Shown: positions 547 through 28,040 of the stretch, piece after piece
How positions within the stretch are numbered: position 1 is the first letter of the stretch
How the letters are laid out: the number at the start of each line of letters is the position of its first letter
Assembly: GCF_000189635.1 (NCBI RefSeq)
Contig: NW_002476212.1
Coordinates: forward strand, 930,001-994,000
Reading direction: 5' to 3'
Source: Tetrahymena thermophila SB210
Taxonomy: Eukaryota; Ciliophora; Oligohymenophorea; Hymenostomatida; Tetrahymenidae
Length of the DNA stretch: 64,000 nucleotides
Notes under the pieces: generated by a model
What the model was told of the DNA's origin: nothing
Database searches by the model: none
What the model saw: the letters and a program-made list of their open reading frames with translations, nothing else
Position numbers and translations under genes: made by a program

Positions 547-1422
547 CTATAATGGATGTGATATATTTATTTGAATGCTCTTTCAACAAATATTAAATAA
601 ATTTAAATTTATAATAAAAAGATGAATTTACAATTTTATAATATTAAATCCCATTTATTTTATAAATAATTAATGTATATTTGTTATTTTAAAAACCATT
701 ATTACATAAATTTCAAAATTAAATAAAAATTACCTTCTTTTTTTGATTTAACAAATATTCAAAATAAAATTAATTTAATTTTTAGATAAATTAATTGATA
801 AAGATAAAATTTAAATTTATAAAAATAAATTAATACATAAATGTAGAATTTAATGTAAAATGATAAATTTAATATGAATCAATTTATTGAGATTATAAAT
901 TAAGTTTTAATAATAAGAATTTTATTCTAAAAATTATTGAAATTAAATGAAAATAAATTTATTATTTCTAAATTAGAAATCACATTTATTTTATCAAAAT
1001 TTAATTTAATATTAATTGTTTTTAATAGTCAATTGAATTTACCCATAAATTTGAAAGTTAAATCAAAATTCTCTTTGTTTTTGTGTTAATAAATAATCTA
1101 TCAAAATTTATTTAATTTTAAGATAAAAAATATTGATTAGGTTAGAATTCTTAGCTAAAATTGAAATTTATAAAAATAAATAAACACAAAGAAATAGAAT
1201 TTCATGTAAAATAATAAATTTAATAAAAATTTATTTATTTAGATTTTAAATTTGGTTTTAATTTATGAGAATTATTTTTTTTAATAGTAGATGCAGAATT
1301 TATTTATAAAAGATGAAAATAAATTTACCATTGATCTAGATAAGTAAATAAGTTAGAATGTATTAATAACTTAAAAGTCTTGTTTTTATTAAATTAGCTT
1401 TTATTTACTTCAAAACTAAAAT
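547..1422. other. Intergenic AT-rich stretch with a diverged direct duplication
   Basis: No coding signal was seen. Two segments, about 690-940 and about 1030-1290, resemble each other in order: both contain a version of AATTTATAAAAATAAAT followed by GTAGAATTTAATGTAAAAT-like or ATAGAATTTCATGTAAAAT-like sequence. The offset is roughly 340 bases. This looks like an old tandem duplication in non-coding DNA upstream of the modular LRR gene. Confidence 0.4.
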
Positions 1423-3245
1423 ATGAATATTAATGAATCAATTAATAAAGATTATAAATAAATAGAGTTGCTTAAGGTCAATTTTAAGTAAATTTAATTA
1501 ATATTGTTAATCTTAATTTTCTAATACATTTTATATTTTAGTTCTTTGAAATTTGATGGAGATTATTTTTTATAAAATCTTTATGAATTATCTTCGAAAT
1601 GCACAAGCTTAATATCATTAAGTATTTGTTTGGAGTAAGTTTTTATTTCATTCTGAATTTTATTAAAAATATTTTATTTTAATTAATAAGTTCAACATTA
1701 ATAAATGATTTGTCTTTGGTTTCAATTTAGAAATTACTCTCGAATTCCTTAAAAATTAAGTGTCTATAATTAAATCTATCGTAAATAAATGTTTTTATTT
1801 TTTTTTAAATTTAATATCAAATTAAATATAGATAAAATCTAATTACAAAGGAAGGAGCATACATATTAGCTAAGGGAATAAGAGGAAATTTAAATTTGTA
1901 GTCAATTTCTTTGAATTTTGAGTAAGCAACTAATTATTTTTATTTTTACTTTAAAATATTTTAGTAAAAATTAGATTTGTAGTTAAGGACTAAAAAGTTT
2001 ATCAAACTCTTTAAGGGAACTTAAATATTTAACTTAACTAGAGCTTAGCTTGGAGTAAGTTTTTATTTTAATTTTTTCCTTAAACTTCAAAAATATATTA
2101 GGAAAAATTAAATTGAGTCAGATGCAGCAATAGAATTTGGAAAACTGTTAGAATAAACCTAACAATTAGAATCTTTAGTGCTCAATTTTAAGTAATTTTA
2201 TTAAAGATAATTTGATATTTTTCTCATTTATTTCGCATATATTAGTAATAACAAAATTAAAACAGAAGGTGCATTTTAAATTTGTAAAGGAATATCTAAG
2301 TGTAGTAAAATCAAAGATTTAGTGTTGATGTTTAAGTATGTGGTTATAATTTATTTTAAAAATTCTTATTATTCCTTAAAATAAAAGCAATATTTACCTG
2401 ATTTACGATTAATAAAAATACGGACTTTAGCCTTTAGGTATTTAAATTAGTAAATGCAGACATTTAAAAAAGTTAGTTTTAGATTTAGGGTAATTAAATT
2501 AAACTTATTTTTTACTTAATTTATTAGAAATATTAAAAAATTTTTATTAATTTCTCTATGATTGTAAAAAAAAGCTAAAATTCAAATTCTAGCTACAATG
2601 AGCTTTTACCGATTTTAACTAATTGCACAAATTTAAGACATTTGTAGTTTGACTTTAAGTACATTATTGCATCAATATTTACATCTAAATATTGTTAAAT
2701 TTTATTTTAAGTTCAAAAACAACGGAGTTTTAATTAAAAAGTGAATTGAATTAGTTCTATTTTGTTATAGAAAGAGCTAATTACATAACATATCTTTCTC
2801 TTAAAATAGAGTAATTTTAATTTTTAATTTACCATATAATATCTTAAAATTTTCTTTTAGAAATTACACTTTTGGAACTTAAGGAGGATAACTATTGGTC
2901 AATGAATTGCTTAAATGTAAAAATTTAATAACTCTCTAGCTTAGTTTGATGTAAAAAATTAAAATTTAGATTATATTTGATATATATTTTATCTTAGAGA
3001 AACAAACATCTCAATTGCTGACTTTGAATCACTTATTTTGGAATCTAGGAGGAGATTAAATCTTAGCTAATTTTATTGCATTGTTTAGTAAATTTTTATT
3101 TAATCAAATAGTATATCTTATTCAGATAATTTTCAGGTAGTCTTGGCTGACATAACTTCAACTCAAAAAAAGCAAATATTAATATCTATTTAAAAAGAGT
3201 GCTAAAATGGTTTAATACTCTTTGGTATTTACTAAATCCTTTTGA
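1423..3245 (+). CDS. Modular leucine-rich-repeat protein, one repeat per exon
   Basis: Eleven exons fit an unbroken frame: 1423-1487, 1542-1634, 1832-1921, 1965-2054, 2102-2191, 2246-2335, 2388-2489, 2575-2658, 2861-2950, 2998-3087 and 3137-3245. They total 993 nt (330 residues), with ATG at 1423 and TGA at 3243. Every intron interrupts codon position 2. Six internal exons are exactly 90 nt and encode one LRR each, with a pattern like N-x-I-x-x-x-G-A and then C-x-x-L-x-x-L-x-L-x-F (for example TNCTNLRHLQFDFK). Donors are GTAAG, GTATG, GTACA or GTAAT; acceptors are mostly TTTAG or ATTAG. There is no kinase, signal peptide or membrane segment, so it is probably a cytosolic ribonuclease-inhibitor-like LRR solenoid. 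The partner is unknown. The two long introns, 1635-1831 and 2659-2860, could hide further exons. The start of exon 8 could instead be 2593. Confidence 0.7.
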
Positions 3246-4285
3246 AAAAAATGCTACTAGCTTAGAGAGAAGAAATTTGAAAATATATTGTTAATATGGA
3301 TGATAAAAATTTTTAATTTATCTTAAAAATATAGAGTGTATATTTATTTAAAATAATTTGAAGAAATTAATTCAAATATTTAAACAAGTTTATGTTAAAA
3401 ATCATAAATAAATTTATATTTATTTTTTAAAAACAACACAAGGAAATATTTATTATTTTCAGTTAAAATTATACAATTAAGATATTCTCTTTTTATTTTG
3501 ATTTCTTTTTGAATTTTTTTAATTATATTAAAGATAATTTTATTTTAATTAAAATTTTTGTACGTTTTTAGATATTTAAATAATCTAAATATTTTAAAAA
3601 CAATATTTAATGCATTTTTTAGAAGTAAATAAAAAAGTAAAAATAAATAACAATTTAATAAAATATATTTACTTCGACTAAAATCTAAGTTTTAATTTTA
3701 AAAATATTATTAAAAGTTTTATTTTATGCTTCTTTGGTTTTAATTGATAAAATTATTTGCAGATAAAATATGTAAACTTAATAATTTTACTACCATTTAA
3801 TAAATAAATAAGAAAACTAAGATTTAATTTTAGAAAATAACTTTTAAGATATATTGAAAGTTTAATATAAATTATAAACTGAACAAAATTATAAATAATG
3901 ATAATTTTGATATTCAAATTAGAACAAACTTATTTAAATTTAGTAATAATCTTGAATTGTAATATATATATTTAGAGGTAAAAGTTATTTGTAATTTCAA
4001 CTAAGATGGAAATCAAAACTAAATAATATTATTTTTTTGGGTATCTTGTTTTTAATTTAAAGTAATAGATTTAATTAATTAGCAATTAATAAAATAAATA
4101 ATTTGGTTAAGAAATTTCTACTCATAAAAAAATTTATAACAATTCTCTAATATTTAAATAAAAATTTAAAAACATCAATTTATTTATTAGTTGATTAATT
4201 TGTTTATTTATTTGAGATTTTATTTATTTTTTACGAATACATTATAATATTTGGAAATATAAATTATTCTACAGGCAATATTGAA
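3246..4285. other. Intergenic AT-rich stretch
   Basis: I see only A/T-rich sequence with short TTTA and AAAT runs. No ORF of convincing composition is present on either strand. It lies between the 3' ends of two convergent genes (LRR gene and EMC7-like gene), so it should hold both polyadenylation regions. Confidence 0.5.
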
Positions 4286-17001: not shown

Positions 17002-17754
17002 AGGAAATTAAATTGATGCTATTGATGCTTCAGCCTTAGGTTTTGCTTTAGCAAACTACACTAATCTTTCAAATTTTAAACTTAATTTTTGGTAAAAAAA
17101 GTTCATTATTTTAAAACAATAAAGCTCTTAAAATTGATTTATTAGTTTTTTATTTTACTTATTTTAATTTTGTATTGTTGTTTTGTTTTTTTTCTATATT
17201 AATTTAACTAATAAATTATTTTATTCTCTTCAATATTTAAAAAGTGGAGATTAAATTGGTGATGCATCACACTTAGTTTTTACCCTAGCAAAGTGCACTA
17301 ATATCTTAAATATGAAATTTAATCTTTCTTAAAAAATAATTTATTTATTATTGTTATAATTTTTATATATAAATGAATTTAAAATAATAAATTTCTTATT
17401 ATTTATTTATGTACTAGCTTTTTATTTGATTTAATTTCCTTTTTTATTTTGACTGAGGTTTTATGAATAATTTAACTAATTTTTATTTTTTAACTTTTGC
17501 TTTTTATTTTAGAAAAATATGGTAAATACCAAATTTACAAATCCATGTTTTTTATCTAAGCTAGAAATTTACTTTTATCTAAATCAGTTTTGAAATAAGT
17601 ATGTATATACTCTCCATAAGAATATATATTCATTTCAACATAAGTACATGATTCAAGCTTGAAATATTTGACTATAATACTCAATCATGAAATATCAAAA
17701 TAATCTTAATACTTATCAAACATTATTTCTAAATGTAATTAGAAAATAAAATGA
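17002..17754 (+). pseudogene. Orphan LRR exon modules (gene remnant or unrecognised gene)
   Basis: Exon-like unit A at 17002-17091 is exactly 90 nt. It lies between an AAAAAG acceptor and a GTAAAA donor, in phase 2, and encodes GNQIDAIDASALGFALANYT followed by NLSNFKLNFW. Unit B at 17245 to about 17334 encodes GDQIGDASHLVFTLAKCTNI and then LNMKFNLS; it shares the same upstream sequence (ATATTTAAAAAG) but has no GT donor at the expected end. Both match the repeat exons of the LRR gene at 1423-3245. A further open stretch after a TTTTAG acceptor at about 17516 runs to TGA 17752-17754, but its link to the LRR units is unclear. No start codon or complete gene could be built, so a decaying fragment or recently scattered exons are likely. 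Confidence 0.5.
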
Positions 17755-26100: not shown

Positions 26101-26345
26101 TAAAATGATTGAAATATAAGAATTAATTTAAATGTTTTATATTCATGACAATATATGTGTTTCTTTTAAATAAATAGACATTTTTTATTCGTATATTTTA
26201 ATTGAAAAATTAAAAAAAAATAAATAAAGTAAAAATAAAATAATTTAAAAACAATAAAATATCAAAAAATTTCATAGAATTTTAATAATTTAATAAATTA
26301 AAAATCTCAATTTTATCATTTAAGTCCTTTATTTCAATTTTAAAA
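23162..26345. other. Long intergenic region with simple repeats and a foldback
   Basis: No coding signal was seen over 3.2 kb. Simple repeats include (TCAA)n near 23522-23538, (GATA)n near 23806-23818 and (TTTA)n near 24045-24063. A long inverted repeat at about 25190-25410 is listed separately. Promoters of the flanking divergent genes (lipase, pseudokinase) must lie at its ends. Confidence 0.55.
25190..25410. repeat. Long inverted repeat with a perfect 19-bp inner arm
   Basis: GAAAATACCTTTCTAAAAA at 25253-25271 is perfectly complemented at 25327-25345, with a 55-base loop. The match continues imperfectly outward: the left side has AATTGATACAATTTTTAAAATAAG-like sequence near 25200 and the right side has its complement near 25385-25405. 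Total arm length is about 70-80 bases. It resembles a MITE-like foldback. No transposase gene was found. Confidence 0.65.
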
Positions 26346-28040
26346 ATGGGCTAAAAATAAGTAAGGTTTAATTTTGATAATCCTGTATATAATTCTAATT
26401 ATATTTAATAACAAATAATATACAAACAAGATTTATATCAAGTTGCTATTGTATGCTCTAAAGATTTTTAAGAATTATTTGCATGTCATAGTTTTTAAAG
26501 CATCTATGATTAAAAAGATGTTGATTAAAATGAATTCGAAAAAATAATTAAGGCTCTCTAATATCTTTAAAATGAAAATAATATCTTGTCTATAATTGAA
26601 AAAATAGAGCATACATAATAAGGATTGACAACAATTATTACAGAGTTTGTTGATTGTAATTTAACTTAAATAATTGAGCTCAATAGATTTAACTTTGAAT
26701 AAATCATAGCGTTGACTTATTAGTTGTTAAATTGTTTAAATTTACATTAGGAAAAGGGTATAATTTACCACGATATAAAACATGACAGCATCTTTTTTAG
26801 CAAATCTAAAAATTAATTTTTTATAGCTAATTATCAATAACTTAAAACAACAAAAAACACTTTCTTTAAAAAAATATCTGATTTCCTTAAAATTAATTCT
26901 ATAAATTAATCTACAGAAGTGCTATCTTAATATGAACCAGAACCAACAAGTGATAATTTATTTTCAATAGGAATAATATTAACTGAAGTATATATCTAAA
27001 GAAGCCTTAATAATATTGAGTTGTAGAATTTGAAAAATTAAACATTATTGAATGTATTGCCTTTTCTGTAGTAATCTTCAAACATTGAATTTATAAACAA
27101 AATACTTTCTAAAATGCTTGAATCAAATAAAGATATAAGACTTATGCTAAATATTCTAATATAAAATCTAAATACATTTTTTGTTAATGAGAGCTCTTTA
27201 AAAAAGCTTAAACTGTCAAAATAAATTACAAAGTATAAAATGTCTGAAGATAAAGATATTAAAATAGTAAGAAATTATGAAATAATAGAAATGGATTTTA
27301 AGAGTTTATTAGCATATAAATAATTCAAAGAATAAGCTGTAAAGGATATTGGGATGATTATAGAAAAGTGTCAAGACTTTACAAATTTGATTATTCAAAA
27401 TATATCACTAGAAAATGTAAATTTAATTGAGTTTATCTTATAAAAGTGTAAACACATTACTTCTTTATGTCTTGGTCTTTATGATACTAAACTTGGACCA
27501 GAAAGGGCAAGAAATATAGATATTAACCTTGAAAATTGTTAAAACGTCGCTTGTTTGTATCTTAATCTTGCTGATAATAAACTTGGACCAGAAGGAGCAA
27601 AAAGTATTGGAATGAGCTTAGAAGCTCTTCAAAACATTACTTCATTGACTATCAATCTTTAGAATAATGATCTTAGAGATGAAGGAATAAATAAATTTGG
27701 ATTAAGCTTAGAAAAGTGCCAAAGCATCTCTTATTTGAATATCAATCTTCAATCCAATTTGATTGGACATGAAGGAATAATAAATTTTGGAATGAGCTTA
27801 CTGAGGTGTCTAAAAATAAATTCTTTGACTCTCAATTTCGATCGTAATGGATTAACACAAGAGAATATAATTAATTTTGGAGCAATTGTGCAAAAGTTTT
27901 AAAACCTCAAATATTTTAATTTATTCTGCAGATTTACTAATTAATCTTTTCCTTTATCGCCTTTATACTACTATACATTTTTTAATCATATTTTCAAAAC
28001 AAAAAGATTAGTAATATTTAAAACTAAAATCGATATTTGA
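26346..28040 (+). CDS. Pseudokinase-LRR fusion protein
   Basis: An intronless frame of 564 residues (ATG 26346, TGA 28038). Residues about 25-300 follow a protein-kinase fold. The catalytic loop reads IIYHDIKHDSIFF, so Asp and Lys are kept but the usual Arg and Asn are not. The DFG position reads ANYQQ, and no glycine-rich loop or clear VAIK Lys is visible, so catalysis is unlikely. After a linker, residues about 340-540 contain several LRRs of about 30 residues, for example SLEALQNITSLTINLQNNDL and SLEKCQSISYLNINLQSN. These have the same N-x-L-x-x-E-G and C-x-x-I-x-x-L-x-I-x-L layout as the modular LRR gene at 1423-3245. Kinase-LRR proteins are a known expanded group in Tetrahymena. It is probably a cytosolic scaffold; partners are unknown. 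Confidence 0.75.

Follow-up and report, generated by a model that had tools for sequence, protein, structure and literature searches.

A 13-exon leucine-rich repeat gene of Tetrahymena thermophila, very probably an older member of the 90-bp-exon family

Does a leucine-rich repeat (LRR) gene that is split into interchangeable exons still change its repeat number, or does it preserve an arrangement made long ago? The question is raised by a forward-strand gene at positions 1423–3245 of the window, the 64,000-nt stretch of DNA analyzed here (C288:930001–994000). A first-pass annotation of this DNA had described an eleven-exon LRR gene interrupted throughout at codon position 2, and had proposed that its repeat number can change by exon duplication or alternative splicing. 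Contig C288, 1.143 Mb in length, carries C4A2/T2G4 telomere repeats at either end, and the source is most likely the macronuclear genome of T. thermophila; the genome searched comprised 101 Mb in 445 contigs and contains a telomerase RNA whose sequence matches the one of T. thermophila. The gene is real, fuller than first described, and known in kind: the phenomenon, modular 90-bp LRR exons with phase-2 introns, is already published.

Read with the ciliate code, the gene comprises 13 exons in a hand-placed model running from ATG 1423 to TGA 3245, with lengths of 65, 93, 90, 90, 90, 90, 90, 102, 84, 99, 90, 90, and 109 nt; the CDS of 1,182 nt would encode 393 residues and, as had been claimed, divides by three. 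Exon 1 (1423–1487; MNINESINKDYKQIELLKVNF) is followed by LRR units in exons 2 (1542–1634), 3 (1691–1780), 4 (1832–1921), 5 (1965–2054), 6 (2102–2191), 7 (2246–2335), 8 (2388–2489), 9 (2575–2658), 10 (2712–2810), 11 (2861–2950), and 12 (2998–3087), with weak repeats in exons 10 and 12, and exon 13 (3137–3245) supplies the C-terminal end and the TGA. Exons 3 and 10 had been overlooked in the eleven-exon account, whose list of internal lengths (93, 90, 90, 90, 90, 102, 84, 90, and 90 nt) equals the other internal exons but lacks these two; both match the repeat pattern, and the frame is intact with or without them. Exactly 90 nt is the length of seven of the 11 internal exons, one more than previously counted. 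The assertion that every intron interrupts codon position 2 holds for 12 of 12 introns, and the single cut point of the repeat was likewise borne out: all 11 internal exons share one register, cut directly after the L-x-L-x-[L/F] strand, with L or F as the last strand residue before the cut in nine and I and V in the other two. An observation apart concerns the first exon, which becomes exactly 90 nt when stretched upstream in frame with the ATG to the nearest TAG (1398–1487), as if it were a former internal repeat unit.

The 12 introns measure 43–85 nt, 11 of them 43–56 nt, and carry GT-AG borders that the method imposed; the exon edges are predictions from the sequence. Acceptors are TAG in seven cases, AAG in four (before exons 3, 8, 9, and 10), and CAG in one, and G+C content is 8–17% in introns vs 17–29% in exons. 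A model in which acceptors had to be TAG or CAG and donors had to be GTAA or GTAT yielded a truncated 10-exon gene and was replaced when AAG acceptors and one GTAC donor were admitted. Introns 1 (1488–1541), 3 (1781–1831), and 6 (2192–2245) have lengths divisible by three and are free of TGA in frame; a transcript that retained any of them would therefore still encode an untruncated protein.

The array lies far beyond chance. An exon finder that demands an AG, a TGA-free segment of 81–105 nt divisible by three, a GTA, and hydrophobic residues at the repeat positions joined 11 LRR exons into one chain within 1401–3300, while 300 second-order Markov sequences made from the same interval gave chain lengths of 0 (202 sequences), 1 (93), and 2 (5). 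Elsewhere in the window (the plus strand from 3301 and the entire minus strand), the finder returned 237 candidate segments, three of which score at 6 or 7 of the 7 positions, one of these being a family relic at 17002. This test is circular in part, since the hydrophobic positions came first from the gene itself; an independent check is afforded by the leucine positions that Xiong et al. give for 90-bp exons (nt 36, 48, 66, 75, 81, and 87). At these positions, the seven 90-nt exons encode Leu in 27 of 42 cells and one of LIVMF in 40 of 42. Wrong registers reach at most 15/42 Leu and 21/42 LIVMF for shifts of −1 to −8, and 10/28 and 18/28 (shift +4) with shifts of +1 to +8, which leave fewer cells. 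Across all 11 internal exons, the hydrophobic pattern is present in 63 of 66 cells. A genome-wide count of TTTTAG-N(80–100)-GTAAGT was set aside: with 708 and 655 occurrences vs 905 and 805 in the reversed control, the motif is rarer than its control and therefore uninformative on 90-nt exons.

The family to which such exons belong was described by Xiong et al. in 2019 (PMC6564038), whose main text reports thousands of Tetrahymena LRR genes with exactly-90-bp exons and phase-2 introns. These exons occur in the LRR genes of ten Tetrahymena species, and >98% of the introns preceding them are phase 2. For T. thermophila, the same text gives 90-bp exons in 1,500 of 1,874 LRR genes, from 1 to 51 per gene. 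Two of the published groups are relevant here: group II genes have introns of ~56 bp and are unmasked by consensus repeats, and group III genes have introns of ~257 or ~122 bp and repeat units at the DNA level. Where the family test asks for at least three consecutive exactly-90-nt exons, exons 3–7 of the present gene provide five in a row, alongside the uniform intron phase and the leucine codons detailed above.

The suggested pairwise comparison of exons and introns, intended to reveal duplicated exon-intron units, gave no sign of recent ones. Compared in register, the exons average 41% DNA identity vs 31% when shuffled, and the best pair reaches 54% vs ~53% for the best of the shuffled sets; the mean thus exceeds chance distinctly but by little, as the shared protein motif alone would lead one to expect. 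The introns, once trimmed of splice signals, score no better than shuffled sequences (6.8 vs 6.6, null SD 3.0); untrimmed, they show 59% identity vs 55% shuffled (SD 7). A DNA search of the genome with the whole gene recovered the gene itself at full length and five matches of 49–106 nt, with no further copy. Three of the short matches, at the 3′ end of exon 6 and its donor (2148–2196), reach 86% over 49 nt on C330, C307, and C245; the others, on C219 and C114, have no 90-nt units nearby. At the protein level, the 91 matches in the genome comprise 11 to the gene itself and 80 others at 22–38% identity (best non-self match 1.1e-16, 30% identity), and therefore no close paralogue was found. Many of the non-self matches are collinear over at least 100 residues, an indication that their repeats are not split by introns.

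With its short introns and no near-identical units, the gene very probably belongs among the older, group II-like members of the 90-bp-exon family, an assignment made from intron length and unit divergence. Neither the near-identical exon-intron units of group III nor its ~122 or ~257 bp introns occur in the gene, and 11 of its 12 introns are close to the group II value. The placement falls short of proof because of the 49-nt match between exon 6 and three group III-type genes.

Pursuit of those three matches uncovered arrays of group III type on C245, C330, and C307, in which the proposed process can be seen. On C245, the finder identified 21 successive 90-nt exons of two alternating types (L048 7488 to L049 1871). 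Units two apart share 91% identity in both exons and introns, and adjacent units share 59% in exons and 66% in introns; the duplicated unit is therefore a two-exon block of ~429 nt, not a single exon. The words dimer, two-exon, and alternating are absent from the main text of PMC6564038. The first six exons of the array are common to all three contigs at 89–98% DNA identity. Exons 7 and 8 of the C245 array are present in C330 at 88 and 87%, and the finder, which may overlook diverged units, located no counterpart in C307, where a 204-nt gap lies instead. All three arrays lie near contig ends, so their total exon counts are lower bounds. Among 63 90-nt units from stretches of these contigs, 56 acceptors are AAG, six TAG, and one CAG; AAG acceptors are thus usual in the family. 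Recent exon-intron duplication is plain on C245. The proposed change in repeat number therefore stands as a property of the family, on the evidence of C307 vs C245 and C330 and of the published range of 1 to 51 90-bp exons per gene, but not as a recent event in the gene at 1423–3245, where introns look unrelated and exon similarity is low; under the refuting condition set by the first-pass annotation itself, the claim of recent duplication fails for this gene.

Other LRR sequences lie close by. They were scored with a repeat HMM built from 20 peptides, six of which came from the gene, and so only matches outside it count. Upstream on the plus strand, a single open frame that is LRR-like by eye extends from C288:927895 to window position 546 and ends 877 nt before the ATG at 1423; it contains one HMM match of 13.7 bits, whereas random sequence totalling 200 kb gave 10.2 bits at best. 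A pair of decayed units of group III type, 240 nt apart, occurs at 17002–17091 and ~17242–17331 (+), with HMM scores of 24.6 and 13.6 bits and at best 74–78% identity to C245 exons. The former retains its AAG and GTA borders, the latter lacks a GT donor at the expected place, and neither the finder nor the HMM located further units beside them. At 26109–28040 (+), one long open frame under translation table 6 encodes both a protein kinase domain (PF00069, 32.4 bits, cut-off 31.7) and intronless LRRs spaced at ~30 residues, which score 23.9, 10.4, and 26.2 bits with the HMM and fall under the cut-off of Pfam LRR_6. Within ~30 kb, the region would thus hold the intronless upstream LRR frame, the group II-like array at 1423–3245, relics of group III type, and the frame that combines kinase and LRRs, the group labels being interpretation.

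That any exon could be lost without shifting the frame proved correct: all 66 deletions among exons 2–12 (11 of single exons and 55 of contiguous multi-exon stretches) leave the normal stop in frame. From this property follows the question of whether exon skipping yields LRR isoforms of differing repeat number. Every internal exon is a multiple of three in length and phase 2, as the proposal would have it, but the introns are just 43–85 nt, and short introns are thought to favor intron definition. Published surveys also weigh on both sides: a comparative study (PMC6142364) found T. thermophila to be the sole non-animal with an animal-like bias toward lengths divisible by three in skipped exons, whereas RNA-seq in this species (PMC3274533) recorded a predominance of intron retention, with 832 such events vs 139 cassette-exon events. 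Skipping as a source of isoforms from this gene is accordingly held to be unlikely. A mean intron length of 279 bp at exon-skipping events in PMC3274533 resembles that of group III introns; the value was set aside, since the method given in that paper counts the long skipped span into the average. A wider conjecture, which we regard as doubtful, is that 90-bp phase-2 LRR exons as a class account for the greater part of frame-preserving exon skipping in T. thermophila, forming a large combinatorial LRR-isoform system atop germline exon shuffling. The family might in this way explain why animal-like frame-preserving skipping is seen in T. thermophila alone among non-animals, and, if true, a single cell would possess a splicing-based repertoire of LRR proteins. 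The same signal could arise from reads mis-mapped between near-identical exons. In the main text of Xiong et al. (PMC6564038), "skipp-", "isoform", and "alternative splicing" are all absent; the available text of PMC3274533 lacks the word leucine, and that of PMC6142364 names Tetrahymena in two places, neither on LRR genes. The conjectured link was seen in none of these three papers, and a full-text literature search combining the species with exon skipping and leucine-rich repeats returned one paper, on Paramecium. As a family, these genes offer a remarkable example of exon shuffling.

The history that best accommodates these data would begin with ancient duplication of exon-intron units; each internal exon encodes approximately one 30-residue LRR, with the phase-2 cut directly after the β strand. 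Over the long divergence that presumably followed, the introns would have become unrelated and some units would have drifted by 3-nt steps to 84, 93, 99, and 102 nt. Germline unequal crossing over could alter the repeat number without damage to the frame, as in the young relatives; in the gene itself there is no trace of recent change, whether in its introns, its exons, or the DNA search of the genome. The alternative envisaged by the first-pass annotation, a modular recognition gene of recent origin that now varies in repeat number from allele to allele, draws on the frame kept in every skip and on the exon loss or gain among young relatives in the same genome, but it is very improbable, given that intron similarity is limited to splice signals, that exon DNA similarity between units is low, that no DNA-level paralogue was found in the genome, and that the introns are short and group II-like. 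Decay is a somewhat less remote prospect. Four internal exons other than 90 nt and the weak LRRs of exons 10 and 12 indicate that the 3′ half may be decaying, and these features, with a family relic 14 kb away, could be taken to mark a pseudogene. Such a reading nevertheless appears rather unlikely, as the 13-exon model is free of in-frame TGA (its GT-AG borders being set by construction), the hydrophobic pattern persists in nearly all cells of the 11 internal exons, and the last exon closes in frame. An older, group II-like gene remains the preferred reading.

With respect to the product, Pfam LRR_6 scores 16.9 bits, under the cut-off of 23.4, and the Pfam scan returned no other domain. A phmmer search against the PDB matched the LRR proteins 5irm (listed as uncharacterized), DRC5, LRRC34, and RanGAP1, with a best E value of 8.9e-09. 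We take 5irm to be NOD2, and all four are presumably of the ribonuclease-inhibitor type, which is probably also the repeat type of the product. The protein is probably a small LRR solenoid or scaffold that binds a protein partner; bacterial sensing as a role is a published guess.

Set beside known systems, the predicted product shares its repeat type with 5irm, RanGAP1, LRRC34, and DRC5 by phmmer match and differs from solved LRR proteins in carrying no other Pfam domain. The upstream LRR-like frame and the kinase-LRR frame contain leucine-rich repeats like those of the gene, at the same ~30-residue spacing in the latter, but in both the repeats are unsplit by introns. Exon length, phase, cut point, and AAG or TAG acceptors are common to the gene and the arrays on C245, C330, and C307, whose introns are longer, many at ~122 or ~250 nt in agreement with published T. 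thermophila values; near-identical repeat units occur on C245 and are absent from the gene. With the group II genes it shares exons of 90 bp, introns that are in phase 2 and of ~56 bp, the six leucine positions, and freedom from near-identical intragenic units, and it departs from their pattern in the four internal exons of 84, 93, 99, and 102 nt. For its genome, the gene is an ordinary one.
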